DNA from: an uncultured Flavobacteriaceae bacterium
GTDB taxonomy: Bacteria > Bacteroidota > Bacteroidia > Flavobacteriales > Flavobacteriaceae
NCBI GenBank assembly: GCA_947494565.1
Contig: CANLVG010000003.1
Span: forward strand, 124,001 to 188,000
Direction of reading: 5' to 3'
Length of the DNA: 64,000 bases
Part shown: piece after piece, positions 39,134 to 56,288 of the stretch
How positions within the stretch are numbered: the first letter of the stretch is position 1
Layout of the letters: each line of letters starts with the position of its first letter
Translations under genes and position numbers: made by a program
Notes under the pieces: model-generated
Told to the model about the DNA's origin: nothing
The model's input: the letters and a program-made list of their open reading frames with translations, nothing else
Databases searched by the model: none

Positions 39134-39271
39134 TGTATTTTTTTTTTAATTGTAAAACAGGGCATAGCCGGTATATCCGAGAGACGTTTCGGATAGATCG
39201 TGTACCTGATGTGTGTATTGAAAAATGGGAGTGAAACGCTCGAGAAATATCTTTAACGCTTTACCTAGGTG

Positions 39272-39739
39272 CTAACCTAAAAGGTATTGAGGAGGGTGGT
39301 CTAGGTCTTTAAACAGTCCTTGGGTTTGTAAGCCCTTTGGAGGTATAAAGCATTTGAGCATTGCTATTTCGAAATATGAGGGCAGTAGTAGTTCGTAGTA
39401 CGTAAGATGCTTGTCGAGCTTTGATTTTAAGAACAAGGGGTCTTCTGAACCCTGATCTTCATTCGATGCCTCGAATAGGGTATCAAGAAAATCGATCAGA
39501 TGGTGTGTATGATCCGTTATGCTCTTACCGTGCGAGTGATGACTATCAGCCATGAAAGTCATGTTGGTGGTATTCTCATGCGATAACACATGACTAGGTA
39601 GTTCTAGACCATGAGAAAGTTCATGAAGTACTATATTGATTTGTCGCTGCAATGGATTGGCCAAATAGCAAATACTCATCGTCATCGCCAATATTTTGAT
39701 CAGCTGTACTTTCGCTTTTTTCTTTGGGACTGGTTTCAT
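39272..39739 (-). CDS. Small His-rich membrane-associated protein, unknown function
   Basis: A 155-residue protein with a basic N-terminus and one hydrophobic segment (KILAMTMSICYLANPL). A histidine-rich central region follows: LHELSHGLELPSH, then ADSHHSHGKSITDHTHH (about 67-83). I do not recognise a named family. The His clusters suggest binding of Zn, Cu, Ni or Co in the periplasm. It lies 138 bp before the TonB-dependent receptor gene on the same strand and is probably co-transcribed, which suggests a joint role in metal handling. The HELSH string resembles the zinc-protease HExxH motif, but the protein is too small and lacks a protease-like context. Confidence 0.65.
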   Translation of the reverse strand: MKPVPKKKAKVQLIKILAMTMSICYLANPLQRQINIVLHELSHGLELPSHVLSHENTTNMTFMADSHHSHGKSITDHTHHLIDFLDTLFEASNEDQGSEDPLFLKSKLDKHLTYYELLLPSYFEIAMLKCFIPPKGLQTQGLFKDLDHPPQYLLG

Positions 39740-39922
39740 TCAGGGTTACTTCGCAAATCATCAGCTCATGGCAAACGATTATTAAGTCATGTTTATAGGA
39801 ACAAAAGAAAGAATTTAAACCGAGTTATTGAAAAATACTATGGCAAGGGTACATTTATTGGGTGAATGGTACTTATTTTCGTTGAAAATCCATTGAAAAA
39901 GAACCAGATTTAAGTACATACT

Positions 39923-39941
39923 GAAAATGCTCTGCATTTTC
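39923..39941. repeat. Short perfect inverted repeat in the NRPS 1 upstream region
   Basis: GAAAATGC and GCATTTTC are perfect 8-bp arms with a 3-nt spacer. No T-tract follows, so it is not a terminator. It may be an operator or a chance palindrome. Confidence 0.35.
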
Positions 39942-40058
39942 CATATAGAGGCGGCCTTGGAAAACAAGCTCGATTTTGACTTTTTCCTAAGAATTTGGAA
40001 TAAATTAAACGAATTGGATGAAGTGTGCGTTAGGTTTTCAGGGTATTCGTTTTTTTGA

Positions 40059-40082
40059 TATGTGAAAACGTATTTTCATATA
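40059..40082. promoter_or_regulatory. Near-palindrome, candidate operator upstream of NRPS 1
   Basis: The arms TATGTGAAAA (40059-40068) and TTTTCATATA (40073-40082) pair with one mismatch around a 4-nt centre. The site lies 50 bp before the ATG at 40132, where a regulator could act on the promoter. No regulator gene is in the window to pair it with. Confidence 0.4.
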
Positions 40083-40131
40083 GCCTAGAATAATTGAGCA
40101 ATGTCCCTGGTTTATTTAATAGAAGTTGATA

Positions 40132-43100
40132 ATGTCCCAAAGTACTAGCTTTACGAAAAGCCAAATGTTGATTTGGACCGGTCAGAAGATTTCCCCTGCC
40201 GACCCTTTGTACAACATGATTTTCTCATTTGAGATTGAAGGTAAGATAGTGACTGAAGCTTTTCAGGAGGCCTTTGCTAAGGTCGTAAACGAAAACGAGG
40301 TATTGCGATCATCTGTCAGCATTACGGAAGATATTCCCAGGCAAGTTTACCACTCTCGCGTCGAAAACCCATTAGTATTCTATGATTTTTCGAATTCGGT
40401 TCACGCTTACCAAGATTATCTTGATTGGGTAGCTGTCAATAAACGGAACGTATTTGAAATAGACGAGTTGCTATATCAAGCGGTACTTTTCAAACTACAT
40501 GATACCAAATTCATCTTCTATTTTAATCAACACCATTTGATTACCGATGCTTGGTCGACCCAAAAGTGTTATGATGCGCTAAATGGGCACTATCAAAACA
40601 TTTTGAAGACGCATCAAGAGCCCGGTAAAAGTACATATAGCTTTAAAGAATATGCTGCGGCCAATCCATTTAAATACCAAGAGCAGCCTACTCCATATTG
40701 GCAGAGCAAATCAGATCTTGCCCACGAACCTCTAGCGCTATACGGTCTTAGACCCAAGAGTAATAGCAGTAAAGCTACAAGAGTAAATTTCGACTTGGGG
40801 AAGGACAGAACTGAAAAACTGTATCAGCTTATCCTTGAGGACGGCATTAGGTCGTGGACCCCTGAATTGGCTTTGTCAAATCTTTTCTTAACGGCCTTAG
40901 CGACTTTGCTCTATAAAGTTGGTAACAAAGAAGAGTTCGCAATAGGTGTACCTTTTCATAATAGAACAACGAAGGCGGAGCGAAACATTGTCGGATTGCT
41001 CATGGAGTTGTTGCCTACCCATATTGAAATTGATGAGGAAGCCACCTTGTTCGGATTGTATCTATATATGAAGAACGAGTCGCTAGACGTCGTGAAGAAC
41101 GCGATGGTCGGTAAGCCGCCAATCGACTTATTGAGTTCATTCAATGTGGTGATGAATTTCACTCCAACCACTTTTAACGATTTTGCGGGACTGCCAACGG
41201 AATGTCATTGGCTATTATCTGACCATGTCGACGCTAATCACCATATCAGATTACAGATCCATGATTTTAATAAGACCGGAAGTTTTCAGTTGCTGTTTGA
41301 CTTTATCGATGCCGTTTTTCCCAAAAATCAAATGGATGATATAGGTCGGCATTACATTCAGGTTATCGATGCGTTGATTGAAAATAAAGATCAAAAAATC
41401 AAAGAGTTATCCATAATTACGGAAACAGAGGTCAAGCAGCTCAAGGAGTGGAACAACACCGAAGTTACTTATGGAACGAGCGAAACATTGCTTTCGAAAT
41501 TTGAGAAGCAGGTACAAGACACCCCAAATCGTATGGCAGTACGGTTCAAAAATCGACAATTGACATATGCCCAACTAGATGAAAAATCGAATCAGGTAGC
41601 TCATTTTTTGATTAAAAATAAGGTCCGAAAAAATGATATTGTGGCAGTCAGTCTAGAACGATCTATAGAAATGATGGTCTATACCTATGGCATTCTGAAG
41701 GCAGGTGCCGCCTACCTACCGATTGATGTACTGACGCCTACCACACGATTGAATTTTATTCTAGAAAATGCAAAAACCAAGATACTATTACTGAATCACG
41801 ACAAAATTCAGAAGCGTACTACAGGCATTACGATTTGTTATCATCAGAACACGATCGAGCAAGAGATTTCAGCAATGGATTCCACTCGGCCTGAAGTGAT
41901 GAATGCTCCTGAAGACCTTGCGTACGTCATCTATACATCGGGGAGTACCGGTACGCCCAAAGGTGTTAAATGCCATCATAGGGGTATTTGTAACCGTTTG
42001 AATTGGATGAACGATGCCTATCCGATTTCGGAGAATGACATGCTGATACAAAAAACACCCATTACCTTCGACGTTTCAGTCTGGGAGCTGTTTTGGCCCT
42101 TGCGGCAAGGTGCGGGCCTAGTGATATTGGAGCCGGATGAGCACAAAGATCCCGAGAGATTGATTCAAGCTGTTGTTGATCATGATATTTCGGTAATTCA
42201 TTTTGTTCCTTCAATGTTGAACATATTCAATGCCACCCAAGGTGTTGATAAATGTAGAAGTCTCAAAAGAATATTTTGTAGCGGGGAAGTACTTTCGGTC
42301 AGCACCGTGAAAAAGACACATCACCTTCTTGATGCCGAGGTATATAACCTCTATGGCCCTACTGAGGCTTCCGTCGATGTGAGCCATTGGCACTGTAAAA
42401 GAGGTGAGGTCGGTGAGCATATCCCGATTGGTTATCCCGTAGCGAACACGCAGCTTTATATTTTGGACAATGGTTTGAATAGGGTTCCAATAGGTGCGAT
42501 TGGTGAACTTTATATAACGGGATCACAGGTGGCACACGGATATTTGAACAACGAAGTACTGACAAAAGAACGTTTTGTTCAAGACGTTTTTTCTTTGGAT
42601 GAAAATGCCATTATGTACAGAACAGGTGATTTGGCTAGATATCGACATGATGGAGCTATTGATTATTTGGGAAGAATCGATACGCAAGTTAAACTAAGGG
42701 GTCAACGTATAGAGTTGGGTGAAATTGAAAAGACCATTGAAAGGCTTGAAGGCATTACGCAAGTTATAGTGCAGCTTGGAAAAACGAAAACGGGCGAAGC
42801 GTATTTGGTAGCACACTATACCGGTCAGGTTAGTAGCGATGAGGAGATAATCGCTGTATTGGAACGGTCACTTCCCAGTTATATGATTCCATCCTTTTTT
42901 GTTTATTTAGAAGAGTTTGAGCTGTTGTCCAATGGAAAGATAAACAGGAAAAAAATACCCGTTCATTCGATTGAAAAAGAAAAAGGGAGTGAAACATTTC
43001 AAGCTCCGACGAATGAATTTGAGGAAATTGTTGCCAATACCTGGATGGAAATTTTAAAATTGGATAGGGTAGGGGTCTATGAAAACTTTATTCGTTTGGG

Positions 43101-43251
43101 AGGCAATTCGTTGAATGCCATGACTATTACCTCTCGCTTAAAAAACGCTTTTGAGCTAGATCTTCCGATAACTTTGGTATTCGACTATCCGACCGTAAGG
43201 ACATATGCCGCATACGTCAAGAAAAAAATAATCGAATTATTATCTCAGTAG
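40132..43251 (+). CDS. Non-ribosomal peptide synthetase, C-A-T, serine-type adenylation domain
   Basis: A 1039-residue single-module NRPS. The condensation domain (about 1-430) has the catalytic HHLITDA at residues 134-140. The adenylation domain (about 445-945) has YTSGSTGTPKG, YRTGDLARY and NGKINRKKIP. Reading the Stachelhaus positions by eye gives D-V-W-H-F-S-L-V-D plus the C-terminal Lys. This is the classic serine code, the same as I recall for EntF. The carrier domain (about 960-1039) has the phosphopantetheine Ser993 in LGGNSLN. There is no thioesterase or epimerase domain, so the chain must pass to another protein. A leading C domain means it accepts an acyl or aminoacyl group made elsewhere, most simply from the carrier protein at 44434-44661. 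The start is ATG 40132; a TTG two codons upstream is less likely. Confidence 0.92.
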   Translation: MSQSTSFTKSQMLIWTGQKISPADPLYNMIFSFEIEGKIVTEAFQEAFAKVVNENEVLRSSVSITEDIPRQVYHSRVENPLVFYDFSNSVHAYQDYLDWVAVNKRNVFEIDELLYQAVLFKLHDTKFIFYFNQHHLITDAWSTQKCYDALNGHYQNILKTHQEPGKSTYSFKEYAAANPFKYQEQPTPYWQSKSDLAHEPLALYGLRPKSNSSKATRVNFDLGKDRTEKLYQLILEDGIRSWTPELALSNLFLTALATLLYKVGNKEEFAIGVPFHNRTTKAERNIVGLLMELLPTHIEIDEEATLFGLYLYMKNESLDVVKNAMVGKPPIDLLSSFNVVMNFTPTTFNDFAGLPTECHWLLSDHVDANHHIRLQIHDFNKTGSFQLLFDFIDAVFPKNQMDDIGRHYIQVIDALIENKDQKIKELSIITETEVKQLKEWNNTEVTYGTSETLLSKFEKQVQDTPNRMAVRFKNRQLTYAQLDEKSNQVAHFLIKNKVRKNDIVAVSLERSIEMMVYTYGILKAGAAYLPIDVLTPTTRLNFILENAKTKILLLNHDKIQKRTTGITICYHQNTIEQEISAMDSTRPEVMNAPEDLAYVIYTSGSTGTPKGVKCHHRGICNRLNWMNDAYPISENDMLIQKTPITFDVSVWELFWPLRQGAGLVILEPDEHKDPERLIQAVVDHDISVIHFVPSMLNIFNATQGVDKCRSLKRIFCSGEVLSVSTVKKTHHLLDAEVYNLYGPTEASVDVSHWHCKRGEVGEHIPIGYPVANTQLYILDNGLNRVPIGAIGELYITGSQVAHGYLNNEVLTKERFVQDVFSLDENAIMYRTGDLARYRHDGAIDYLGRIDTQVKLRGQRIELGEIEKTIERLEGITQVIVQLGKTKTGEAYLVAHYTGQVSSDEEIIAVLERSLPSYMIPSFFVYLEEFELLSNGKINRKKIPVHSIEKEKGSETFQAPTNEFEEIVANTWMEILKLDRVGVYENFIRLGGNSLNAMTITSRLKNAFELDLPITLVFDYPTVRTYAAYVKKKIIELLSQ

Positions 43252-43329
43252 TCCTCCATTTTTTGTGCAAAACAAGTTGTAGAGGTCTTGCATATAGAAT
43301 CGAGAAATATCCGTGAATTTACAATTGTT

Positions 43330-44406
43330 TTAGCGCAGGAAATACTTTTTTAAGATGCTACTAAAACGCAATTCGATATACTTGTAGGTGAGGTATGAGT
43401 ACATGACCGATATAGCCAAGGATACGCAAAAAACAGAAAATTGGTTGAATCCATTATTTTCCAGTTTTAAAAACTTAAAAAGTAGTTGCGGCACTACGAG
43501 AATGATTAAAAAATGATTCAGGTATAACGAATAGGAGATGTTACCTAAAAACTGAACCGGTCCGCTATTTAGAAGTTTAGAAAGAAAACCGTCAGCCTTT
43601 ACAATGATAAGAATGGCTAATCCAAAAACCACGGGAACCACGAATTCGAAAAGTAGACCGGTACCTTTTTCTTGGGTTATGGACAGGATATAAAGACATG
43701 CAACAATTAAAAATGGAATCGCATATTCGAGATAATTCTTCAATCTGAAGTTCTCAAGACTGATTTTCCAAACGAAATACCCTAGCAGAAAAGAAAAAAG
43801 ACCTCTGATAAATCCGTAGTCCCCTAACTTGAATAGTGTTCCAAGGTTGAACAAGATGATACCGGACACCAGTGTGAGCGCCAAGTAGATGCTATTTTTT
43901 ACTCTAAGATTGGAAATAAGCGCTATGATACCAAATACGAAGTAAGAGATCATTTCAGAAGAAATAGACCATGAAGGAAGGTTGAGGCCTGTGGTCGAAC
44001 CTAAAATTGGGGTCGAATTTGTGAAAAGCAGCGAATCCAAGGTCTTCATTACCAATCCCTCAATGTTCGTATTGGAATCTACAACAGATGGAAAAAAATA
44101 AATAGCGAATACCCGAAATGAAAAGTAAACAAGTACGGAGAAAAAGAGCATCGGATAGAGTCGAATAAACCGTTTTTTATAAAAGACCTTAAACTCTTGA
44201 AAAGATACGAGCGAACTGTAGTTATAGGCTATTACAAAGCCACTGAGTACAAAAAAGAAGTCTACGAAGGTATATGCCTTTCTTATAAAAAAGAGGTCGT
44301 AGAAGTCTTGGTGCAAGTATCTTCCAGGATAGTGGTACAATACGACCATTAAACTCGCTATACCCCTTAAGCCATCTAATTCGGTTAGTCTGGGACGCAT
44401 TTCCAA
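43330..44406 (-). CDS. Acyltransferase 3 family membrane protein (OafA/NodX-like)
   Basis: A 358-residue polytopic membrane protein. The N-terminus TELDGLRGIASLMVVLYHY carries the family's Arg and His motif, and VDFFFVLSGFVIAY the second conserved segment. About ten hydrophobic helices follow. These enzymes transfer acyl groups, usually acetyl, to sugars or other hydroxyls. The gene is the last of the five-gene minus-strand operon with the proline-carrier genes (27 bp after the carrier protein gene), so its acceptor is probably the non-ribosomal product or its sugar rather than the capsule. Whether it uses acetyl-CoA or the carrier-bound acyl group cannot be told. Confidence 0.83.
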   Translation of the reverse strand: MEMRPRLTELDGLRGIASLMVVLYHYPGRYLHQDFYDLFFIRKAYTFVDFFFVLSGFVIAYNYSSLVSFQEFKVFYKKRFIRLYPMLFFSVLVYFSFRVFAIYFFPSVVDSNTNIEGLVMKTLDSLLFTNSTPILGSTTGLNLPSWSISSEMISYFVFGIIALISNLRVKNSIYLALTLVSGIILFNLGTLFKLGDYGFIRGLFSFLLGYFVWKISLENFRLKNYLEYAIPFLIVACLYILSITQEKGTGLLFEFVVPVVFGLAILIIVKADGFLSKLLNSGPVQFLGNISYSLYLNHFLIILVVPQLLFKFLKLENNGFNQFSVFCVSLAISVMYSYLTYKYIELRFSSILKKYFLR

Positions 44407-44433
44407 TTTTCTTGAGGAACAGTTGAATAGAAA

Positions 44434-44661
44434 CTATTTCCTATTGGAAATATAGGTGGCCATATCATCTATGCTCATAAAGTTTTCGATGGTCATATCT
44501 TGGGGCGGAACTTTCAATTCGAACTCTGTTTCGATAAAGAGGATCAATTTCATCATTCCCAACGAATCTAAAATGCCTTCACCAAGCAAGTCGTCCTGGG
44601 CCTCGATGGGGTCATCGGCCTGAAATTGCTCATTTATGTACTTTAAAAGAATATCTTTCAT
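44434..44661 (-). CDS. Discrete acyl/peptidyl carrier protein
   Basis: A 75-residue free-standing carrier protein. The phosphopantetheine attachment site is Ser33 in GILDSLGMMKLI, and FELKVPPQDMTIENFMSID is the typical second half. It is acidic and of normal length. It lies 4 bp from the standalone adenylation gene and one gene from the acyl-CoA-dehydrogenase-like gene. This matches the PltL / PltF / PltE arrangement, in which proline is loaded on the carrier and oxidised to a pyrrole. It is the likely donor to the C domain of NRPS 1. The phosphopantetheinyl transferase at 55557-56288 should activate it. Confidence 0.9.
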   Translation of the reverse strand: MKDILLKYINEQFQADDPIEAQDDLLGEGILDSLGMMKLILFIETEFELKVPPQDMTIENFMSIDDMATYISNRK

Positions 44662-44665
44662 ATCA

Positions 44666-46231
44666 TTATCTCTGGATTAGACTCTTCACGATTTCCGAAC
44701 GTTTCACTTTCCCTGAACTGGTTCTCGGGAAGTCTTGAAGAAAATATATGTGATTGGGTATTGCATATGGTGGTAAATACGTTTTACTGAAAGCGATCAA
44801 ATGATCTGCTGATTGTTCTATCTCCTTTGTCCCGATAATAGCGGCAGCGATTTGTTTTTCGTTGTTTTCATTTTCTAAGATAAAAACGGCGGCTTCCTCA
44901 ACGCTGTCGTGCTTGCCTAAAACTGCCTCTACCTCGTCTAATTCAACCCGATATCCTCGTAGCTTCACCTGTCGATCGTTCCTTCCCAAAAATATGAGAT
45001 TACCCTGCTCATCCTCTTTTACCAGATCACCAGTTCTATAGAATACATGTTCGACTCCAGGAGCTATGTGCTCAGTGTATAACGCCTTTTTTGTGAGTAC
45101 ATTGTTATTCCAGTAGCCTTTCATCATGGTCGCGGAACGCACGAGAAGTTCTCCTGAGGTGCCTTTGGGTACTGGTGAGTTGTCCTCTCCAAGGATTTTA
45201 TAGGTCGTATTTTCCCAGATTTTTCCGATGGGAATTTGCTCATCTGTTTCAGGTGGAGTGTTTAGATGGTAATATGTGCATTGATTTACCTCTGCCGGGC
45301 CATAGACGTTACTGAATGTAGCACTAGGCCATAATCCCATGAGTTCTCGCATATATTTCGGAACAAAATTCTCACCTCCGTATAAGACCCAACGCAATGG
45401 TGATAAATCACGTTCATCAAGCACTCCGTTTAACAATAGCTGAACCAGGGCCAAGGGTACGGAATACCATATGGTGATTTTTTCCTGTTCCATCAAGGCG
45501 GAAAGACTCGCCGGAAGTTTTGTATGCGCATCGGGAATAATGACTGTGGTCGCCCCTGCCAGCGGTCCGGAGAAATAACCAAAAGTTGAAATGTCAAAAT
45601 GCAAAGGAGCATGGTTCGCTATTCGATCGGTAAGCGTTATGTTATAGACCTGAGCCGAAAGTTTGGCATAGCTGAGCCCACTATGATGGGTGTGCATGAT
45701 ACCTTTAGGGGCACCCGTAGAGCCTGACGTATACATGATATATGCCAAATCAGATTCGATAATTTTTACTGGTTGATAGGTGCTCAAATCTATTTTGAAA
45801 ATAGCATCCCAAGATACAGATGGAATAGTCAAATCCGCATCGATTCCAATAAGGGATTCAAGATTTGTTTCCGTTTCTAAAATAGCCTTTATTTTCCTGC
45901 GTTGTTTTGCCGTAGTTGTGACATGTTTGATACCACAATCGTCTAACAAAAATCGGGTTCTGGCGTGTGGTGCGCTAGGATCTAAAGGAACATAAACGGC
46001 TCCGGCCTTCATGATGCCATAAACGGCGAGTGCCGTTTCCAAACAGCGTTCCATGTAAACACCGATACGATCTCCTTTACGGACGCCTTTCATGATCAAG
46101 TGAGATGCCAGCTGATCCGTTTTTTTGTCAAGTTCCCCATAAGACATAGAATCTCTTCCACAACGGAAAGCATCTTGCTCTGGAAACGATCGGGCCGAGT
46201 TCTGAATGATATGTGGGAGCGTAAACAGCAT
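44666..46231 (-). CDS. Standalone adenylation enzyme, probable L-proline--carrier protein ligase (PltF-like)
   Basis: A 521-residue stand-alone adenylation protein with no fused carrier or condensation domain. Core motifs are intact: YTSGSTGAPKG, YRTGDLVKE, LGRNDRQVKLRGYRVEL and SGKVKRSEI. The specificity positions read by eye are D-I-F-Y-L-G-V-Q, close to the D-L-L-Y-L-A-L-V that I recall for proline ligases of pyrrole pathways (PltF, CloN4, RedM). The segments HFDISTFGYFSGPLAGAT and IWYSVPLALVQLL are also typical of that group. The adjacent carrier protein (4 bp) and dehydrogenase (12 bp) fit. A DltA-type D-alanine ligase was considered, but no dltB/dltD neighbours accompany it here. Confidence 0.83.
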   Translation of the reverse strand: MLFTLPHIIQNSARSFPEQDAFRCGRDSMSYGELDKKTDQLASHLIMKGVRKGDRIGVYMERCLETALAVYGIMKAGAVYVPLDPSAPHARTRFLLDDCGIKHVTTTAKQRRKIKAILETETNLESLIGIDADLTIPSVSWDAIFKIDLSTYQPVKIIESDLAYIMYTSGSTGAPKGIMHTHHSGLSYAKLSAQVYNITLTDRIANHAPLHFDISTFGYFSGPLAGATTVIIPDAHTKLPASLSALMEQEKITIWYSVPLALVQLLLNGVLDERDLSPLRWVLYGGENFVPKYMRELMGLWPSATFSNVYGPAEVNQCTYYHLNTPPETDEQIPIGKIWENTTYKILGEDNSPVPKGTSGELLVRSATMMKGYWNNNVLTKKALYTEHIAPGVEHVFYRTGDLVKEDEQGNLIFLGRNDRQVKLRGYRVELDEVEAVLGKHDSVEEAAVFILENENNEKQIAAAIIGTKEIEQSADHLIAFSKTYLPPYAIPNHIYFLQDFPRTSSGKVKRSEIVKSLIQR

Positions 46232-46243
46232 AAATACGAGTGG

Positions 46244-47395
46244 CTAAAGGCCTAAAAGTTTTGCGATGATGTTTCTCTGGATATCAGAAGTACCTGCATA
46301 AATGACCCCACCAACGGCATCACGGAGATTTCTCTCGATTTCATTTTCGGAAATATAGCCATCGCCCCCGTGATTTCGTATCGTGTCAAGACTCGATTCC
46401 ACAAAATTTTCACTGAGGTGCAATTTTAACAGGGCAGATTCCATCATTGACGACTTTCCTACACTATTGAGCCAAGCCACTTTATAGAGTAGCAATCTTG
46501 AGGTTTCCAGTCTTAATTTCATATTGGCGACCCTGTTGGAAACCGACTGGAATTGACTTATTTTTTTTCCGAATTGTTCCCTTTGTTTTACAAACGCTAT
46601 GGTTTCCTCAAGTTGATGTTCCATGGCACCCAATTGTCCGGCAAGTATGGTACAGCGGTCGTGTTCGAGCGAGCTATTGGTTATCGCCCAACCCGCACCG
46701 ATTGGTCCCAACAAATTCTCTTCGGGAACAAAGCAGTCTTCAAAAAACAAATCGCCAAAGGGTACCGTTCGCAATCCCATTTTTGGCCGGTTTGGTCCTG
46801 CGGTAAAGCCTTTCATGCCTTTTTCAACAATGAAAACGCTCATGCCCCACTTGCCTAATTTTGGATTGGTTTTTACAAAAACCAATATGACATCTGAGAC
46901 GGGTCCGAAAGTGATGTAGCGCTTGGTACCGTTTAAGAGATACCCTCCTTCAACTTTTTTGGCACTAGTTTCCATACTGAAAACATCGGATCCTGAACTG
47001 GGTTCGGTTAGTGCATGGCACCCGATCCACTGACCAGAAGCCAATTTAGGTAAGTACTTCTTCTTTTGGTCTTCAGTTCCGAAAGTTAAAATCGGATATT
47101 GCACGGTCCACATCTGGGCACTTAATCCAAAGGGTAGGCCATTATCCCGGCATCCATAACCGAAACCTTCCATTGCCAAGGTGGCAGTGAGAATACTAAC
47201 ATCATCAGTTGAGCCGCCATAGGCTTTGGTAGTGGCTAGGCCTTGAAGGCCGAAGTCGGCACATTTTTCCCAATCTGCTCTTGAGAATAGACAATCTTTG
47301 TCTTGCTTCACATAAGAACCCCCAAAATTGGCCGAAGCGAAGTCACTTACTTTGTTCTTATACTCCAATTGCTCTGAGGTCAGTGAAAAATTCAT
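46244..47395 (-). CDS. Acyl-CoA dehydrogenase-like flavoprotein, probable prolyl-carrier-protein dehydrogenase (PltE-like)
   Basis: A 383-residue FAD-dependent enzyme of the acyl-CoA dehydrogenase fold. HALTEPSSGSD is the FAD/substrate loop, and YAGTSDIQRNIIAKLLG the C-terminal signature. At the usual MCAD-type catalytic position (YEGT) there is Ala instead of Glu. A candidate base, Glu244, is present in SSLEHDRCT, the position used by the isovaleryl-CoA-dehydrogenase type and, as I recall, by the PltE/RedW prolyl-carrier dehydrogenases. It should oxidise carrier-bound proline to pyrrole-2-carboxyl thioester. The tight operon with the proline-type A domain and carrier protein supports this. 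Stopping at a dehydroproline stage is also possible. Confidence 0.85.
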   Translation of the reverse strand: MNFSLTSEQLEYKNKVSDFASANFGGSYVKQDKDCLFSRADWEKCADFGLQGLATTKAYGGSTDDVSILTATLAMEGFGYGCRDNGLPFGLSAQMWTVQYPILTFGTEDQKKKYLPKLASGQWIGCHALTEPSSGSDVFSMETSAKKVEGGYLLNGTKRYITFGPVSDVILVFVKTNPKLGKWGMSVFIVEKGMKGFTAGPNRPKMGLRTVPFGDLFFEDCFVPEENLLGPIGAGWAITNSSLEHDRCTILAGQLGAMEHQLEETIAFVKQREQFGKKISQFQSVSNRVANMKLRLETSRLLLYKVAWLNSVGKSSMMESALLKLHLSENFVESSLDTIRNHGGDGYISENEIERNLRDAVGGVIYAGTSDIQRNIIAKLLGL

Positions 47396-47506
47396 AGGTC
47401 CGATGGTGTTTGTTGTATTGTGGGTAGCGTTGAACTGAAATCATTTCGGCCGAAATTAAAGTAAAACGGGCGAAAAGTAAACGAATCAAAAAAACGGGAA
47501 ATCATC

Positions 47507-48577: not shown

Positions 48578-48903
48578 TTTCTTTCTTTAACACAGCTAAA
48601 CAAGTCAGCAGTTTACTCGCAATGTATGTAATTTACAAATTAAAAATCAACTATTTTGCCCTTGTTTCGATGAAAAGTCACATATTCTTGCCAGCACGCA
48701 ACCAAAATGGATTTTCACATCTTATTGCATTGCGGTACCTTTATAAGCCCCTGATAATAACCAAACTTTGTAGTAATATTGGACCTGACACCAAAAGTGA
48801 ACCGTTTATCGTTTATATTTAAAACTGTTAAACTTTTTTCCTTTATTGCGCAGCTTTCGCGTCAATTTTCAATGTCGCGTAACGTCTAAACCCGTATTCC
48901 GTT
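48578..48903. promoter_or_regulatory. Divergent promoter region between the pyrrole operon and the HupE-NRPS 2 operon
   Basis: About 326 bp between divergent starts, AT-rich near both genes. It holds the promoters of the two biosynthetic operons by position. TTTTCACA at 48712-48719 is the complement of the TGTGAAAA half-site seen in the palindrome upstream of NRPS 1. No exact -7 box, RNA gene or terminator was recognised. Confidence 0.45.
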
Positions 48904-50136
48904 ATGAAAAAGTTAATGTCCCTTTTTGTCCTATTGGCCCTATTTTTAGTACCCAATGCCTCCGAAGCGCATGAGGTAAATCAGAGTTATATCTTCTTGA
49001 GAATATACGAAAGTAAAGGTATAGAGGGGAGGTTTGAAATGAATGTCCGTGAGTTGAACAAGTTATTGGGTACCAACCTTCCGAAAGACCTGCAATTAAA
49101 GGATATCGAACCCTACATAGAACAAATCAAGGCGTATTTGTTGAAGAATACCTCCTTCTCCTCTCCTTTAGGAAATCATAATATCATATACACCGGTGAA
49201 GTGGACGTTCAGAAAGTAGCCTTGGGAAATTTTGTCAAAATCCATTTTGAATTGGATAATGATGAGGTATTACCAGATGAGATGACAACCGACTACAACT
49301 CGTTCTTTGAACTAGATGATTCGCATGCGGCCTTTTTGATTACTGAATACAATTGGAAAGCGGGCGTAATCAACGATGAAATGAATTTTTCTATGGATTT
49401 CGGACCTGGAGATACTTCCGAAACGATGTCGCTTACCGATGTATCGGTTTGGAAAGGCTTCTATGCTATGATCAAGCAAGGAGTATGGCACATTTGGATC
49501 GGTCTAGATCATATTTTATTTTTATTGGCACTGATTTTACCTTCAGTAATCCGAAGGAAAAAAGATGCTGCCGGGTTCAATCTATCCAATTGGGAACCTG
49601 TGCAAGAGTTTAAACCAGCCTTCTATTACATCCTTAAGGTGGTCACCTTTTTTACGATAGCACATACCATTACCTTGACCTTAGCCTCCCTGCAAATCGT
49701 AAATCTGCCCTCCCGAATCGTTGAATCGATTATAGCCTTTTCAATAGGCTTAGCCGCGTTTCATAACATACGACCTATTTTTAAAGGTAGGGACTGGGTT
49801 ATCGCCTTTATTTTTGGACTATTCCATGGATTTGGTTTTGCCAGCGTACTCGGTGATTTGGGGTTGACAAATGATTTTCTGACCGTTTCCCTCTTAGGAT
49901 TTAATATCGGAGTTGAAATAGGGCAATTGGTCATTATTGCCATGATTTTTCCGATTTTATTCTTGTTGCGAAATCGAAAAATCTACAATAAAATTCTACT
50001 TTATGGGTCTATAATCCTAATCATAATATCTTTATATTGGTTTTTAGAACGAGTCCTTGACATTAGATTCGGTGTATATCACATGGTGAAAAGGAGTATT
50101 CGTGAATTGGCCGTTGCGCTTGGGCTTTGGTCATAG
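48904..50136 (+). CDS. HupE/UreJ-family membrane protein
   Basis: A 410-residue protein with a signal peptide (ending SEA-HEV). It has an extracytoplasmic domain of about 170 residues and a C-terminal membrane domain of the HupE/UreJ_2 type from about residue 195 (GVWHIWIGLDHILFLLALIL), with further His-containing helices (FTIAHTITL, IFGLFHGFGFASVLGDLG). The His/Asp pattern resembles Ni/Co-permease-like families. HupE/UreJ proteins are linked to nickel or cobalt supply for hydrogenase and urease, but the role of the long Bacteroidota form is unclear. Its 3' end overlaps the NRPS 2 start by 10 bp, making it the first gene of that operon. This is unusual and suggests a role in transport or metal handling for the peptide product. 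Confidence 0.83.
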   Translation: MKKLMSLFVLLALFLVPNASEAHEVNQSYIFLRIYESKGIEGRFEMNVRELNKLLGTNLPKDLQLKDIEPYIEQIKAYLLKNTSFSSPLGNHNIIYTGEVDVQKVALGNFVKIHFELDNDEVLPDEMTTDYNSFFELDDSHAAFLITEYNWKAGVINDEMNFSMDFGPGDTSETMSLTDVSVWKGFYAMIKQGVWHIWIGLDHILFLLALILPSVIRRKKDAAGFNLSNWEPVQEFKPAFYYILKVVTFFTIAHTITLTLASLQIVNLPSRIVESIIAFSIGLAAFHNIRPIFKGRDWVIAFIFGLFHGFGFASVLGDLGLTNDFLTVSLLGFNIGVEIGQLVIIAMIFPILFLLRNRKIYNKILLYGSIILIIISLYWFLERVLDIRFGVYHMVKRSIRELAVALGLWS

Positions 50137-53100
50137 AAGTTGGTGAAGAAGAAAAAGATTTTAGGTTGAAAAGTGAACTGGTAAAAGACGATTTACTTTC
50201 GAAATGGAAGCGTAGGGATAAGAAGGGAGATTTGCCTGGCGAGATTCCTAAAGCTCCTTCAAATGTTGCCATACCGTTGTCTAATGGGCAGAAGGGATTG
50301 TGGTTCCTGCAAGATCTAAACAAAGAAAACTCCTTCTACAATTATGGCGAGCTCTATGATCTTAAAGGCGATTGGTCGATTTCCTATTTGAAAAGTAGTA
50401 TTCGCCAAATTTATGAGTCGCACGATATACTCAGGTCTAGTTGCATTGCTGGTAGTGATGGACTCGAACTGAAAATAGACTATGATTCGCCATTGACCAT
50501 TGAAGTGCATGAATTGGGTGCATTTCCCCTCGATGAAGCGCTTGCTACAGTACGACAAGTTGTTGCGGAAGATTTTACGACACCTTTTGAATTGAGCAGG
50601 TCACCATTACTCAGAGTGCGTGTTTTCTCAATTGATAAGGGCTATCATATACTGAGCGTGACCATGCACCATATCATCACTGATGAATGGTCCATGGATA
50701 TCTTCATGAAGCTTTTGGCGAAAAATTACAGGAAGTTGAAATCAGGTCAACAGCTTCCCAATGAAAAACCGGAATTGCAATTCAGTGATTTCGCTTATTG
50801 GGACGATACTCGAAAATGGCCGGAAAAAGAATTGACTTTTTGGAAAAAGGCTTTATCGAATCATACGCCCAACCTGGCGCTACAAACGGACTTTAAAAGA
50901 CCTGTATTGCCCTCGTATCGGGGATCTCATAAATCCTTGGAGTTTTCTCGAAAACTCTCCGAGGAGCTTCTGAATTTGGCAACGGAATCGGAAGTAACCC
51001 CTTTTGTCTTGTTACTCTCATTGTTTTACATCTTGCTGTATCGACATACGGATCAAAAAGACATTTTGGTCGGCTCACCCATTGCGAAAAGAAACCATAA
51101 AGGATTGGAAGATCTGTTGGGTTTTTTCCTGGATACCTTAGTACTTAGAAATGAGATTGATGGGGGCAATACCTACGCAGAGGTTTTGGCTAAGGTCAAG
51201 TCGAATACGCTGCAGGCATTCGCGCATAGAGACATTCCTTTTGATGTTCTCGTAAAGGAATTGAACCCTGAGCGGTCTGCCGGGAGTAATCCGTTTTTTC
51301 AGGTCATGTTTGTCTATAATACGGAATCAACAACACCGGACTTTGGTGAAGGTTTGATTCTTGAGAAAAACGACTTGGTGCGCTTAGAAAGTTCCAAATT
51401 CGATCTTACCCTATTTGTTTCCAAAAAGGACGGCGTGTTGACAGCGAGTTTCGAATATGCTACGGATTTATTTGAAGCCTCGACTATAGATCGGTTATTG
51501 GCCCATCTGCATCTCTTGGCCGAGGGTGTGGTGAAGAATCAAAGCGTGGTAATTTCCGAATTGCCGATGAGAACACCTGAAGAAACAGCGTTGTTCTCCG
51601 AAATTTCCTTACCGAACGCCGAACATACTGATTTTAACTATGCTGGCGGTATTCATAAATCGATAGAGGCATTTGCCTCTAGGACCCCTGATGCTATCGC
51701 GATCAGTTTCGGCAACCAGTCGATGACCTATAGTGAATTGAACACCAAGGCGACGACTATAGCTAGTAACTTGATCAGGTTTACCGGAGGTGAAAATACC
51801 TTTATAGGTCTGTGTATTGAGCGTTCCCTTGACATGATCGTAGGTCTTTTGGCAGTGTTAAAGTCGGGATCGGCCTATGTTCCACTAGATCCCGAATACC
51901 CCAAGGAACGACTTAAATATATCGTTCAAGATGCTAATGCTACATTGGTGCTGACGCAGGATGATTATGTAGCTGATTTTGAGGAATTAGGTGTTGACAG
52001 TATCTCTGTTTCTGCTCCGCAGATGACAAGCACTACTACAGGAACGATTTTGCCAGAGGTTGGCGGCAATGATTTGGCCTACGTGATTTATACATCCGGG
52101 AGTACCGGAAAACCTAAGGGAGTACCGATTTCACATCAAAATATTTTAGATTCTACGAAAGCTCGATTTTCTTTTTATGAAGAAAATCCAAGTGCGTTTT
52201 TGTTGTTGTCTTCCATTTCTTTTGACAGTTCTAAAGCAGGCATTTTCTGGACCTTATGTTCAGGAGGCAATCTCGTTATTGCAAAAAAGAGATTGGAGCA
52301 AGATATGGCTGCCATGCAAGAGCAAATCTTAACTCATAAGATTTCGCATGTATTGACGTTACCCACGCTGTATGGGTTGATGCTGGAACACATTTCAATC
52401 AATGCCTTAAGTCAACTGCGAACGGTCATTGTGGCGGGTGAAGCATGTCCTTCCCAACTACCGGAAAGACATTTCGACCTTTTACCTGAGTCGGTTGTTC
52501 TATACAACGAATACGGCCCGACCGAAGCTACTGTATGGTGTACCGCCCATCGAATTGAGCCTGATGATCGATACAAATCGATCCCTATAGGTCGAGCCAT
52601 TAAGGGGGCCAAGATCCATTTACTTGACGCTCGCTTACGCCATGTGCCCTTAGGGGCTATGGGAGAGATCTACATTTCAGGTAATGGCTTGTCTCAGGGG
52701 TATCTGGGAAAACCGGAGCTTACCAAAACCAAGTTTGTCGAAAATCCGTTTGCTGCCGATGGCGAAAAAAAGCTGATGTACAAGTCGGGTGATCTAGGCC
52801 GATTTCGAGCTGATGGCAACATCGCATTTTTAGGACGGGTAGATTCCCAGGTAAAACTGCGAGGTTTTAGGATAGAACTTGATGAAATCGAGGAAACCTT
52901 GCTGACCCATCGACAGGTCAAGGATGCGGCCGTTGTCATCAAACCTGCAGAACAAGGGAGTGCGAACGGTATTTTAGTCGCTTACCTTATCTTAAGGTCC
53001 AAAGTTGAATTGCAGGAAATCAAATCCTTCTTAAAACGCCTGCTTCCGAAACATATGGTGCCCGCACAAATTGTCGTTCAAGACACTTTTGTCAAACTGC

Positions 53101-54185
53101 CCAACGGCAAAGTGGACAAGAAGTATTTGGAGACCCTTCCCATGGAAAAGTTAGGAGACCCTATTGGGCCGTCAGAAGAGCTTACGGAAACAGAGGGTAC
53201 TTTAATTGCTATTTGGGAAAAAATATTGGGGTTCAACGGCTTGGCAGTGGATGATAACTTTTTTGAAATAGGGGGAAATTCGATAATGACGATTCAAGTA
53301 ATTTCCGAAGCACGCAAAATGGGTATGGTCATTTCGCCGAATCAATTATTCGATTATCAGACCATTCGTGAATTGGCTGCTTTTGTAGACCAAAATCAAC
53401 AGCAGGATGATCAGTGGGATTATATGGTACCCTTACGAAAAGAAGGTTCTAAAAAACCACTTTTTTGTATCCATGCCGGAGGCGGCCATGTGTTCTTTTA
53501 CAATAAGTTGACCGACTATTTGGAGAAGGATACCCCTATTTACGCGCTACAACCTTCAGGAGTATATGGCGATAAGGCAATGCATAGAAGCGTAAGTGAG
53601 ATGACCCGTGACTATCTTGAAGCTATAAAAAAGGTACAACCCCAAGGACCTTATAATATTCTGGTCTATTGTTTTAGTGCTGCCGTAGGTAACGAAATGG
53701 CCCTTCTATTAGCGGAAAAAGGTGAAAAAATCAACTTAATCGTTATGGACACTATGACGGCGCCGGCGGTACTCAATACGCCACGAAGACTGAGAATACG
53801 AATTCAGACCTTTCTCATGCGTTTTGTCAAGGCACCCTTTCGGTCCGTGCGCAATATGATTATTTCAAAATATGCATTGATCCGTTTAAAATGGAGAAGT
53901 AATTTTGAGGTCGACGAGGAATCTCGGGAACTGGAAAAACTTCGAGTCAATCTGATGGACTTGAGTCAAACCTATACATGGAAACCGTTTGACGGAGAAG
54001 TTTCATTGATATTGACCAAGAAAGACCATGAAGCCTTGAATAAGGAAACCGTGCGTTCTTGGCAAGAAGTCGTGAAAAGTGATGTAACTATTGTACGTAC
54101 CAGGGGCAGTCATCGCGAACTTTTTGACGAACCATATGTGAAGTACACGGCAAAAGCTATAGAAAAGTGTATGTTTGATCACTAA
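50127..54185 (+). CDS. Non-ribosomal peptide synthetase, C-A-T-TE, with Cys-type thioesterase
   Basis: A 1352-residue terminating module. The C domain (about 45-480) has HHIITDE from His181. The A domain (about 510-1000) has YTSGSTGKPKG, YKSGDLGRF and NGKVDKKYL. Specificity positions read by eye are D-S-A-T-I-A-E-V-W, which I cannot match to a known substrate; Asp at the first position implies an alpha-amino acid. The carrier Ser1052 is in IGGNSIM. In the TE domain (about 1105-1352) the nucleophile elbow reads VYCFSAA where GYSFGG is usual, placing Cys1182 at the nucleophile position, with Asp1208 and His1329 as partners. The start is a TTG at 50127 overlapping the HupE gene. No ATG lies before the C domain, so the start is uncertain; a second TTG at 50166 is possible. 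Confidence 0.9.
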   Translation: MVIEVGEEEKDFRLKSELVKDDLLSKWKRRDKKGDLPGEIPKAPSNVAIPLSNGQKGLWFLQDLNKENSFYNYGELYDLKGDWSISYLKSSIRQIYESHDILRSSCIAGSDGLELKIDYDSPLTIEVHELGAFPLDEALATVRQVVAEDFTTPFELSRSPLLRVRVFSIDKGYHILSVTMHHIITDEWSMDIFMKLLAKNYRKLKSGQQLPNEKPELQFSDFAYWDDTRKWPEKELTFWKKALSNHTPNLALQTDFKRPVLPSYRGSHKSLEFSRKLSEELLNLATESEVTPFVLLLSLFYILLYRHTDQKDILVGSPIAKRNHKGLEDLLGFFLDTLVLRNEIDGGNTYAEVLAKVKSNTLQAFAHRDIPFDVLVKELNPERSAGSNPFFQVMFVYNTESTTPDFGEGLILEKNDLVRLESSKFDLTLFVSKKDGVLTASFEYATDLFEASTIDRLLAHLHLLAEGVVKNQSVVISELPMRTPEETALFSEISLPNAEHTDFNYAGGIHKSIEAFASRTPDAIAISFGNQSMTYSELNTKATTIASNLIRFTGGENTFIGLCIERSLDMIVGLLAVLKSGSAYVPLDPEYPKERLKYIVQDANATLVLTQDDYVADFEELGVDSISVSAPQMTSTTTGTILPEVGGNDLAYVIYTSGSTGKPKGVPISHQNILDSTKARFSFYEENPSAFLLLSSISFDSSKAGIFWTLCSGGNLVIAKKRLEQDMAAMQEQILTHKISHVLTLPTLYGLMLEHISINALSQLRTVIVAGEACPSQLPERHFDLLPESVVLYNEYGPTEATVWCTAHRIEPDDRYKSIPIGRAIKGAKIHLLDARLRHVPLGAMGEIYISGNGLSQGYLGKPELTKTKFVENPFAADGEKKLMYKSGDLGRFRADGNIAFLGRVDSQVKLRGFRIELDEIEETLLTHRQVKDAAVVIKPAEQGSANGILVAYLILRSKVELQEIKSFLKRLLPKHMVPAQIVVQDTFVKLPNGKVDKKYLETLPMEKLGDPIGPSEELTETEGTLIAIWEKILGFNGLAVDDNFFEIGGNSIMTIQVISEARKMGMVISPNQLFDYQTIRELAAFVDQNQQQDDQWDYMVPLRKEGSKKPLFCIHAGGGHVFFYNKLTDYLEKDTPIYALQPSGVYGDKAMHRSVSEMTRDYLEAIKKVQPQGPYNILVYCFSAAVGNEMALLLAEKGEKINLIVMDTMTAPAVLNTPRRLRIRIQTFLMRFVKAPFRSVRNMIISKYALIRLKWRSNFEVDEESRELEKLRVNLMDLSQTYTWKPFDGEVSLILTKKDHEALNKETVRSWQEVVKSDVTIVRTRGSHRELFDEPYVKYTAKAIEKCMFDH

Positions 54186-54195
54186 TTCTTAAGAG

Positions 54196-55545
54196 ATGGC
54201 GCATATTGTACTTGTGACAGGCCTTTTAACCGGAAGGATCAATGCAAGTTTTGAATTGGCTTCAAGACTTCAGAAAGAAGGTCATGAGATTACGTACCTA
54301 TGTCAACCGAGTACCTTGGTAAAAATCCAGTCTTATGGATTCAATGCGTTAGCGGTTTCCAAAATCACATTTGATTATAAAGATCCAAGAAGAAGTGCTA
54401 TGGAATCGTCTTGGTTCAAAAAATTACGATTTCATTTGAAGTATTTAAAAAGTCATTATTCCGAAGGAATAAAGATTTTAAAATTAGAAGAGCACAAAGC
54501 GCTTTTTCGTCAGGTAAATCCTGATTTAGCCCTGATAGACGTTGAAATTCATGACATGATCTTTACCGCAATTGAATTGAAAATTCCGGTGAAGCTTACA
54601 ACAACCTGGTTTTCCGATAAGATCAGTCTTAAAAGTCCTTCAATTCGAACCGGGGTAATTCCGGGCCGTGGTGTTAGTGGCACCAAGGTCGGTATTTTGT
54701 TCTCCTGGTTGCTAATGCGAGCAAAGATAAATGCTCGGGTAGTATTGAACCGTCTGACTTTCACAAACTACCGAAGATGGATGTTTAAAAAATATGCCAA
54801 AAACATCGGTTTCGATACGAGTGGTCTCTTGGTCAATACACTACCGCCACTTTATAGTTTTACGAAATTGCCGATTGTTACAATGACCATGTCAGAACTT
54901 GAGTTCCCTCACAAATTAGCAAAAAATATGATTTATGTGGGTCCAATGATTCGCGAAAATCGGAACCTTCAGAAGGAAGACCCAGCAGTAGCTGACAGGC
55001 TAAAAACCATCTACAGGAAAAGGGACACGGAAAAGGGTCAATTGATTTATGGTTCCGTCGGTTCAATGGCGACGAGTGGAGTGGTTTTTTTAAAGAAAGT
55101 GATCAAGGCATGCACCGACCAAGAAGGATGGCAGCTAGTTCTTTCTTTGGGGCCTAATTTGAACATTGCCGATTTTGGAGAAGTTCCTTCGCAGATTCAT
55201 TTGTTCAATTGGGTGCCCCAACCCGAGGTGATTTCGCATGCTGATTGTGTGGTTACCCATGCGGGCAACAATACGATGAACGAGTGTTTACATTACACCG
55301 TTCCTATGGTGCTCTATTCAGGTAAGAAAACCGATCAAGATGGAAGTGCAGCCAGAATGGCGTATCACGGTCTAGGAGTTCTGGGTGATAAAGATCGTGA
55401 TGGTGCCGAACAGATCAGGTCGAATATTGACGAGGTCTTGACCAATAAGGCCTTTCGTGCTAAGATGATCGAATTCAATAATATATATCAAGACTATCGG
55501 GCCAGAGCTTTAAGCCCGCTCTTGTTCGAAGAAAAAGAATACTAA
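54196..55545 (+). CDS. Glycosyltransferase family 1 (UGT/MGT-like)
   Basis: A 449-residue GT-B enzyme of the family that glycosylates small molecules. The C-terminal donor-binding region has WVPQPEV, CVVTHAGNNTMNECLHYTVP (from about residue 350) and the terminal D-Q motif as KTDQDGSAAR. At the N-terminus, where most members have a GH-x-N/x-P motif with the catalytic His, the sequence reads TGRINASFELA, so Arg replaces His. Either another residue is the base or the enzyme is altered. The gene starts 10 bp after the NRPS 2 stop and precedes the phosphopantetheinyl transferase, so the non-ribosomal product is the likely acceptor. Confidence 0.83.
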   Translation: MAHIVLVTGLLTGRINASFELASRLQKEGHEITYLCQPSTLVKIQSYGFNALAVSKITFDYKDPRRSAMESSWFKKLRFHLKYLKSHYSEGIKILKLEEHKALFRQVNPDLALIDVEIHDMIFTAIELKIPVKLTTTWFSDKISLKSPSIRTGVIPGRGVSGTKVGILFSWLLMRAKINARVVLNRLTFTNYRRWMFKKYAKNIGFDTSGLLVNTLPPLYSFTKLPIVTMTMSELEFPHKLAKNMIYVGPMIRENRNLQKEDPAVADRLKTIYRKRDTEKGQLIYGSVGSMATSGVVFLKKVIKACTDQEGWQLVLSLGPNLNIADFGEVPSQIHLFNWVPQPEVISHADCVVTHAGNNTMNECLHYTVPMVLYSGKKTDQDGSAARMAYHGLGVLGDKDRDGAEQIRSNIDEVLTNKAFRAKMIEFNNIYQDYRARALSPLLFEEKEY

Positions 55546-55556
55546 AACCGAAGAAG

Positions 55557-56288
55557 GTGCTGAACAGAAAGCTCGACAGATCAAGGTTACATGAACTAGC
55601 ACAGGTTTGGTATTGTACTTTTTCAAAAAATGAATTCCTGCTTCCTACTTTTAGAAGCGTACTATCTGCGGATGAAGTGAGACGCGCAGGCCGTTTTAAG
55701 TTTCAGAAAGATAGGAATAGCTTTATAATTACCCGTGGAGTGCTGCGAACACTTCTTGGGGGTTACTTGGAACTACCTCCTTCGGAAATACTACTGGAAT
55801 ATACAACGTATGGAAAGCCTTACCTTCTTGACAGTACGTTAAAGTTCAATGTTTCACATTCGGGTGATATGGCGGTATTTGCCTTTGTTCTCGATACAGA
55901 GGTCGGCGTAGATATCGAACAGGTCAAAGACGATTTCGACCTAATGGAGTTGGCTCGAAATTTCTTCTCCGAACATGAAATAGCGGCAATGGAAAATATT
56001 CCAGAGACGGACTTAACGCGTGCGTTTTACCGCTGTTGGACACGTAAGGAGTCTTTCATCAAAGCGGAAGGAAGCGGACTCTCTTTCCCTTTAGATAAGT
56101 TTGCGGTATCATTGGACCATGACCACGAGGCGACCTTGATTCAAACGGGATGGGATCTTCAGGAAAAAGATAATTGGAGTTTATATTCATTCCTGCCAGA
56201 ACAGCAATATATTGGAGCGTTGGCAATCAGAGATAAATCAAAGGGTATTGAATTTGCTAATTTGGTCGACATTAGTACGCTCTCATAG
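55557..56288 (+). CDS. 4'-Phosphopantetheinyl transferase, Sfp-type
   Basis: A 243-residue transferase that attaches phosphopantetheine from CoA to carrier domains. The magnesium and CoA motifs are GVDIEQV (about 118-124) and CWTRKESFIKAEG (about 160-172). NVSHSGDMAVFA and KPYL are the usual upstream motifs. The length fits the Sfp group used for secondary metabolism. It is the last gene of the HupE-NRPS 2-GT operon (11-bp spacing) and should activate the two NRPS carrier domains and the free carrier protein at 44434-44661. The start is a GTG at 55557, since no ATG lies nearby. Confidence 0.9.
   Translation: MLNRKLDRSRLHELAQVWYCTFSKNEFLLPTFRSVLSADEVRRAGRFKFQKDRNSFIITRGVLRTLLGGYLELPPSEILLEYTTYGKPYLLDSTLKFNVSHSGDMAVFAFVLDTEVGVDIEQVKDDFDLMELARNFFSEHEIAAMENIPETDLTRAFYRCWTRKESFIKAEGSGLSFPLDKFAVSLDHDHEATLIQTGWDLQEKDNWSLYSFLPEQQYIGALAIRDKSKGIEFANLVDISTLS

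Follow-up and report, generated by a model that had tools for sequence, protein, structure and literature searches.

The starter unit of chalkophomycin (chmGHIJ) is made by a discrete adenylation (A) enzyme, an acyl carrier protein (ACP) and enzymes of the acyl-CoA dehydrogenase fold (ACADs), which convert proline into an N-heterocyclic ligand, and the finished product binds Cu(II); among the systems compared, it is the nearest precedent met for a proline-derived ring acting as a copper ligand (PMC10849742). A likewise discrete set is found in a 64,000-nucleotide stretch of DNA from an uncultured Flavobacteriaceae bacterium (GCA_947494565.1, contig CANLVG010000003.1, positions 124,001 to 188,000), here called the window, where it forms part of a nonribosomal peptide synthetase (NRPS) gene cluster that also encodes a TonB-dependent receptor and a HupE/UreJ-2 permease. 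The locus is probably a biosynthesis and uptake system for a nonribosomal metallophore, N-heteroacyl-Ser-His, with a receptor and a permease of its own. While chalkophomycin involves two ACAD-fold enzymes, N-hydroxypyrrole and graminine, the window encodes a single ACAD, modules read as Ser and His, and the receptor and HupE genes.

The window ACAD and starter A enzyme are nearest to members of the prolyl-ACP dehydrogenase systems AnaB, PigA, RedW, PltE and Bmp3, yet the window set stands apart from these in a catalytic-base column that is mostly Asp, an A pocket with Gly301 and Gln330, a gene for an ornithine/lysine cyclodeaminase-family enzyme (OCD) and a metallophore-like context. The predicted product resembles the Xaa-Xaa-His peptides of the amino-terminal Cu(II)- and Ni(II)-binding (ATCUN) or N-terminal site (NTS) type, with His in third place behind two amides, if its residues are joined in the proposed order; it would differ in being nonribosomal and in having a ring nitrogen as N-terminal donor, perhaps with no free amine, since an imine or pyrrole nitrogen would stand in its place, depending on how far the ring is oxidised. 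The anglerase-HupE/UreJ-2 proteins share with the window's HupE a signal peptide, an N-terminal His and a beta-sandwich fused to a HupE_UreJ_2 domain, but are described in Pseudomonadota (Ang-1) and Actinomycetota (Ang-2); the parts compared name no NRPS genes among their neighbours, whereas the window's HupE is tied to NRPS genes (PMC12537917). The nonribosomal peptide metallophore clusters of antiSMASH likewise combine NRPSs with a TonB receptor and leave receptor-only remnants; these clusters are detected via known chelator genes, a receptor-only 'cheater' is described, and the main text contains no match for HupE, copper or Bacteroid (PMC12971057). Lusichelins (no matches for pyrrol and histidine in the part compared) were examined and dismissed, as was CrtA, a copper receptor of B. 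pertussis. Among the matches listed from open-licence PubMed Central papers, there was no described cluster or product combining NRPS, ACAD and HupE.

Gene content and conservation of the cluster

The cluster spans positions 36902-56288 and lies in four strand blocks (36902-39739, minus; 40126-43251, plus; 43330-48577, minus; 48904-56288, plus) rather than the three transcription units proposed in an earlier note on this DNA, all of whose named genes lie where it had placed them. The left edge drawn in that note, 39272, proved too short, as the cluster includes the TonB receptor gene at 36902-39133, which adjoins it in 12 of 12 same-family relatives that carry the ACAD. In the 5.39-Mb genome two Condensation domains were found (E up to 0.001), both in the cluster, which is composed of the following genes (C, condensation; T, thiolation; TE, thioesterase; PPTase, phosphopantetheinyl transferase).

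36902-39133, minus strand: TonB-dependent receptor of the outer membrane, 743 aa, which would import the metal-loaded product; mature protein likely to begin with His (..SA^HELSG); SHAHGQGYAD motif
39272-39739, minus strand: small His-rich protein, 155 aa, with an N-terminal hydrophobic stretch; putative receptor partner
40126-43251, plus strand: NRPS1, C-A-T, code DVWHFSLVD (predicted Ser); likely ATG start at 40132
43330-44406, minus strand: acyltransferase 3 family membrane protein (Acyl_transf_3), accessory; 2 of the 90 loci, the window included, have a homologue
44434-44661, minus strand: discrete carrier protein (ACP), 75 aa, DSL motif; present in 12 of 12 relatives
44666-46231, minus strand: discrete A enzyme, code DIFYLGVQC; Pro or pipecolate, a cyclic imino acid, as proposed substrate
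46244-47395, minus strand: ACAD, an oxidase of the acyl-CoA dehydrogenase fold, prolyl-ACP dehydrogenase family; catalytic-base column occupied by Asp246, with Glu244 beside it
47507-48577, minus strand: OCD, ornithine/lysine cyclodeaminase-family enzyme; proposed supplier of the cyclic imino acid
48904-50136, plus strand: HupE/UreJ-2 permease (HupE_UreJ_2); signal peptide, then His (codon 48970-48972); periplasmic anglerase-like domain at about 48970-49458
50127-54185, plus strand: NRPS2, C-A-T-TE, code DSALIAEVW (predicted His); TTG start overlapping hupE; TE motif CFSAA
54196-55545, plus strand: GT1 (UDPGT-like) glycosyltransferase, accessory; 23 of the 90 loci have a homologue
55557-56288, plus strand: Sfp/HetI-type PPTase; present in 12 of 12 relatives

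This gene set is no chance juxtaposition, because 126 ACAD relatives were found in named genomes and 74 of 90 loci have HupE close to the set. A search of 299 same-family genomes for the ACAD (E up to 1e-80) gave 13 with the protein, the window's included, and across the 12 relatives the genes run as follows: TonB receptor, small His-rich protein, NRPS1, ACP, A, ACAD, (OCD), HupE, NRPS2 and, further on, PPTase, with the OCD gene varying in position and strand. All 12 hold the receptor, HupE, NRPS1, NRPS2, A enzyme, ACP and PPTase; the small His-rich protein is detected by BLAST in 11 (G150 has an open reading frame (ORF) of similar size at that place), OCD in eight, GT1 in five and the acyltransferase in none. 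The TonB receptor and HupE are counted as cluster members because they are kept in all 12 relatives while the outer genes differ.

The 90-locus set consists of the best 80 of the 126 relatives from the named-genome scan, the window and nine further loci; nine same-contig duplicates were left out. Many of the best 80 belong to Flavobacteriaceae and Saprospiraceae/Lewinellaceae, and others were found in Leptolyngbya, Adonisia and Crocosphaera as well as in Acidobacteria, Planctomycetota, Pseudomonadota and Acidimicrobiia, several being metagenome bins that are perhaps misassigned. The earlier note knew of no Bacteroidota cluster with this gene set and a HupE gene; dozens of relatives are now at hand. 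Twelve of the 16 loci without HupE are on stretches shorter than 13 kb, and a receptor homologue is present in 64 of the 90 loci, the cyanobacterial loci and several others from outside Bacteroidota having none.

The receptor family itself occurs in 50 of 120 family genomes. From these, 20 ACAD-less receptor loci were fetched, and six more of the 50 are ACAD clusters. Six of the 20 keep the receptor, HupE, NRPS1, ACP, NRPS2 and PPTase and have neither ACAD nor OCD; two of the six (G006 and G103) are also without the A enzyme. Because such clusters exist, the oxidised starter is a variable part of the system, and the receptor, HupE and the two NRPSs form its core. No NRPS genes were found at 11 of the 20 loci, and the G066 stretch is short; at one locus with the receptor and no NRPS genes (L087), inspected by eye, the neighbours were housekeeping-like and uninformative on the metal. 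Finally, G001 (L073/L096) and G110 (L072/L097) retain the receptor beside an NRPS1 remnant only, together with the small protein in G001. They resemble the receptor-only 'cheater' described for other metallophores (PMC12971057) and may possibly be cheaters themselves.

A module exchange in the window shows by comparison with four close relatives (L102, L104, L105 and L107), whose DNA matches the window on either side of 39146-44460 and not within it (blastn, E 1e-10). Within this segment, they carry an Asn-type NRPS1 collinear with ACP, whereas the window has an inverted Ser-type NRPS1 and the acyltransferase. In Saprospiraceae/Lewinellaceae, a gene for an ATP-binding cassette (ABC) exporter adjoins HupE (L127:5727-7433, by eye; L130:6809-8629, by Pfam) and is a candidate for exporting the product; no gene of this kind is present in the window cluster. 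In one Saprospiraceae cluster, what looks by eye like a sulfotransferase gene separates ACAD from A (L154:11195-12064). The window cluster is flanked on the left by a CpsB/CapC gene and on the right by a TldD/PmbA pair and a Bat-type operon. Farther to the left, at 1141-26687, lies a capsule-type polysaccharide set (10 ORFs scanned, most of them of capsule or surface-polysaccharide character) with sulfotransferases, MBOAT, a UDP-sugar dehydrogenase and a Wzz/tyrosine-kinase-like protein, separated from the NRPS cluster by a 2947-aa ORF at 27045-35888.

Starter cassette and assembly line

Sequence comparison supports the A enzyme, ACP and ACAD as a discrete starter cassette of the prolyl-ACP dehydrogenase family. 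We take 4irn to be AnaB, 6cxt Bmp3, 5zw0 PigA, 6o6e PigI and 7thn PltF. The best PDB matches of the ACAD were AnaB (4irn, 370.7 bits), Bmp3 (273.5) and PigA (272.6), with general ACADs from 238 bits; a 13-sequence profile gave 482.3 for AnaB, 358.5 for PigA and 355 for Bmp3, the next match scoring 300.2. Against NCBIfam, the ACAD reached 387.8 bits for PigA (cut-off 500) and 336.6 for RedW (cut-off 650). In a quick tree whose long branches call for caution, 18 cluster ACADs fell into a single clade that included Bmp3 and PigA, and six further ACADs of the window's genome lay outside it. AnaB is a two-electron oxidase that yields a pyrroline; oxidation as far as pyrrole takes four electrons. 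It is named together with Bmp3 under pyrrole formation in the part of the chalkophomycin paper compared (PMC10849742). Asp246 of the window ACAD aligns with the Glu that is Ala in 6af6, and among 83 relatives (370-450 aa, >50% identity) this catalytic-base column holds Asp in 70 and Glu in 13, the Asp share being favoured because the main scan used LE[YH]DRC as one of two patterns.

For the core of the A enzyme, the best two PDB matches were 6o6e and 7thn, both annotated as L-proline--[L-prolyl-carrier protein] ligase; over the whole protein, two-domain LgrA chains outrank both by summed score. Read by hand, the window pocket is DIFYLGVQC, compared with DLLYLALVC in 6o6e and DLFYIAWVC in 7thn, and Gly301 and Gln330 differ from both.

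Code positions of the A domains were taken from GrsA numbering and an alignment to the window domains. The code of NRPS1 is D-V-W-H-F-S-L-V-D, exactly as the earlier note had given for its serine module. We take DVWHFSLVD to denote Ser and DLTKIGEVG Asn. The latter is listed in the Asp/Asn/Glu/Gln section, and DSALIAEVWK is placed among the His signatures, of PMC12283262. NRPS2, for which a second residue and product release had been proposed, does show a C-A-T-TE architecture, and the residue then left open now reads as His from its code. Among the 90 loci, 63 NRPS2-type A domains could be read, 61 of which differ from this His code by at most two letters; NRPS1-type domains are Asn-like (DLTKIGEVG) in 48 of 70, Ser-like in 12 and other in 10. 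The order starter-Ser-His is proposed because the TE sits on NRPS2.

Further features were seen in the NRPSs of the window and its relatives. The TE of NRPS2 (window 53600-53750) has the nucleophile motif CFSxA and not GxSxG, as do the relatives compared. In Asn-type NRPS1 proteins (L027:3513-7655, residues about 810-1230, and L018:3508-7623), an insert of about 340 aa lies between the A core and A_C and gives weak matches to QueC, phosphoadenosine phosphosulfate (PAPS) reductase and ThiI (PP-loop ATPase). Judged by protein length (at least 1272 aa), it is possibly present in 43 of 48 Asn-like and in none of 12 Ser-like proteins, and might modify the Asn side chain. A protein of 261-262 aa (L027:16241-17026, L123:698-1483), similar by eye to S-adenosylmethionine (SAM) methyltransferases and without a Pfam match in the L027 copy, separates split halves of the His-module A domain in several relatives.

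Receptor, permease and proposed route of the metal

Together with the TonB receptor, HupE is unlikely to be a bystander and makes the locus look like a metallophore system. HupE consists of a signal peptide, His, a soluble domain and the HupE_UreJ_2 domain (PF13795, 160.6 bits). With the signal peptide placed by eye, His directly follows it in 13 of 13 flavobacterial proteins and, across the whole set, in all 72 aligned sequences that are at least 350 aa long. For the outer domain, an AlphaFold2 model (predicted local distance difference test score, pLDDT, 86.8) matched four PDB chains at E <0.001, with ZrgA at ranks 1, 3 and 4 and 9gce, the Cu-bound Ang-1 domain, at rank 2 (Foldseek E 2.9e-5; template modelling score 0.60, the highest; 11% identity). 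Ang-1 binds Cu2+ and Ni2+ via its N-terminal His, with dissociation constants of 74 nM and 220 nM, respectively (PMC12537917). In the receptor, A19 and H20 are aligned in 13 of 13 sequences, and L019 and L022 have an insertion between the two; the column after the likely signal-peptide junction holds His in 39, Gln in 19 and Lys in one of 59 sequences. The small His-rich protein matched no Pfam family above cut-off.

On the proposed route, OCD would supply a cyclic imino acid, either proline or pipecolate from lysine, which the discrete A enzyme would load onto the ACP and whose ring the ACAD would oxidise, giving a heteroacyl N donor (pyrroline/pyrrole or dehydropipecolyl/picolinyl). NRPS1 would add Ser and NRPS2 His, the TE would set heteroacyl-Ser-His free, and GT1 and the acyltransferase may optionally glycosylate or acylate it. 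After export, the product would bind its metal through the ring nitrogen, two backbone amide nitrogens and the imidazole nitrogen, a four-nitrogen square-planar site like that of Xaa-Xaa-His (ATCUN) peptides. Such peptides prefer Cu(II), then Ni(II). The TonB receptor would carry the metal complex into the periplasm, where the N-terminal His domain of HupE may take the metal and pass it across the inner membrane. What is observed are the genes present, the codes read, their conservation, the His behind the signal peptide and the predicted fold match; the residues and their order, the oxidation level of the ring, the metal and the direction of transport are deduced.

Several findings weigh against a metallophore system of this design. 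The receptor had no relative at 1e-10 in a PDB profile search, and its structure model has a pLDDT of 53, too low to be of use. Searched by sequence profile against the PDB, HupE gave no match at the threshold used; three of the four fold matches of its outer domain at E <0.001 are the zinc protein ZrgA, and two further HupE-type proteins are encoded in the window's genome. The substrate codes are predictions, and the NRPS2-type A domains of L163 and L165 have an Asn-like code, although these could be first modules, the contigs being short. The 19 regions upstream of hupE and the 19 upstream of the receptor gene revealed no metal-responsive promoter motif, counts of 8-mers and dyads returning mainly A/T-rich words and no shared dyad. 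Among the matches listed for the cluster ORFs, a search covering the cluster and not the rest of the genome, no known chelator gene was annotated; NRPSs and a TonB receptor combined with no annotated chelator gene would make this a metallophore-like system outside the known chelator classes. Such genes are demanded by the antiSMASH rule and not by the function itself.

Alternative readings and meaning

Instead of a proline-derived pyrrole or pyrroline, the starter could be pipecolate made from lysine and yield a dehydropipecolyl or picolinyl cap, which may well be the case even if we lean slightly the other way, and which is compatible with a metallophore. The OCD is nearest to lysine cyclodeaminases (5gzi/5yu0, 291 bits, against 122 bits for the ornithine cyclodeaminase 1u7h), and scores 189.6 bits with the NCBIfam ornithine cyclodeaminase model (cut-off 350); however, lysine cyclodeaminases accept ornithine too. 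Position 301 of the A pocket is Ala in both 6o6e and 7thn and Gly (A301G) in 47 of the 48 loci where the OCD was matched, a BLAST match of any length counting as presence. Three of these loci hold OCD fragments only, namely L107, the one with Ala (96 aa), and L160 (74 aa) and L142 (61 aa), both with Gly. The codes for Pro (DVQLIAHVV) and pipecolate (DFQLLGVAV) also speak for the larger ring. ACAD-bearing loci without OCD have Ala in 12, Ser in six and Gly in 12 cases. Gly without OCD on five stretches of about 21 kb (L149, L159, L169, L175 and L176) argues against the pipecolate starter. Over 69 of the 83 ACAD rows (left out were eight without OCD on stretches <13 kb and six without a readable starter code), Gly301 and OCD were associated at 46:1 vs 5:17 (Fisher p 7e-11, kinship uncorrected), but the kin-corrected pairs, on average 3.5 in agreement, 0 opposed and 2.5 tied, were not significant (median p 0.125). 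Two other features did not track OCD in kin-corrected pairs: the Asp/Glu identity of the ACAD base column and the Ser/Asn type of module 1, for which the raw Ser-like counts were 3 of 41 with and 10 of 20 without OCD. Also against pipecolate, the A core is still nearest to proline ligases, and six electrons are needed to aromatise a six-membered ring. Because Gly301 tracks the presence of OCD, there is a hint that OCD-bearing clusters, the window included, use a larger ring such as pipecolate, with proline still possible. Of the pyrrole starter pathway put forward in the earlier note, the A/ACP/ACAD cassette of the prolyl-ACP dehydrogenase family holds, the A enzyme and ACAD having 6o6e/7thn and AnaB/Bmp3/PigA as best matches and so lying within the proline/pyrrole families, while pyrrole itself is put in question by AnaB as the nearest relative, the OCD closer to lysine cyclodeaminase and Gly301.

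As for the metal, copper fits best, to judge by the His1 site, the analogy with Xaa-Xaa-His peptides and how rarely nickel enzymes were found, with zinc or nickel also possible. That the product serves zinc, nickel or cobalt instead is a less probable but tangible alternative, which gains from the zinc-binding ZrgA being the first-ranked fold match by E-value; Zn(II), for its part, rarely deprotonates backbone amides. HupE/UreJ-2 domains are known nickel permeases (PMC12537917), and NiFe hydrogenase and urease were found in three and one of 19 cluster genomes, respectively, but neither in the window's, so that, judged by these two enzymes, nickel meets no obvious need. A search for nickel superoxide dismutase matched none of the 19 genomes, an absence that is no evidence because no control genome matched either. 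We consider it improbable that the locus makes a secreted, antibiotic-like pyrrole-2-carboxyl-Ser-X metabolite to which HupE and the receptor are incidental. The A enzyme, ACP and ACAD do belong to prolyl/pyrrole families and the relatives of GT1 include macrolide-glycosyltransferase models, at scores below curated cut-offs; yet 74 of the 90 loci have HupE, against 23 with GT1 and two with the acyltransferase, and the receptor, HupE and the two NRPSs are all kept in the six same-family clusters without ACAD. That the locus is an iron siderophore system of an unusual kind is highly improbable: while the receptor matches a siderophore-receptor profile (87.3 bits, below the cut-off of 223.5), no cluster ORF is annotated as a known iron-chelator gene, and a His-based four-nitrogen site would disfavour Fe(III).

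Few NRPS-made peptides for copper uptake are known. A wider reading, which we regard as doubtful, is that the metallophore proposed here belongs to a new, phylum-spanning class of nonribosomal chalkophores, N-heteroacyl-(Ser/Asn)-His, that mimics the copper site of ATCUN peptides, the first nitrogen donor being an oxidised cyclic imino acid (in the window perhaps derived from pipecolate and picolinyl-like), and is handed to a HupE whose N-terminal His takes the copper. It would offer a concrete candidate ligand for the N-terminal-His HupE permeases, and mining by chelator genes probably misses such clusters. If true, this would be an unrecognised mode of metal acquisition common to Bacteroidota, Cyanobacteriota, Acidobacteriota, Planctomycetota, Pseudomonadota and Actinomycetota, several of the relatives being metagenome bins, and the genomes that hold only the receptor would be likely pirates of the product.

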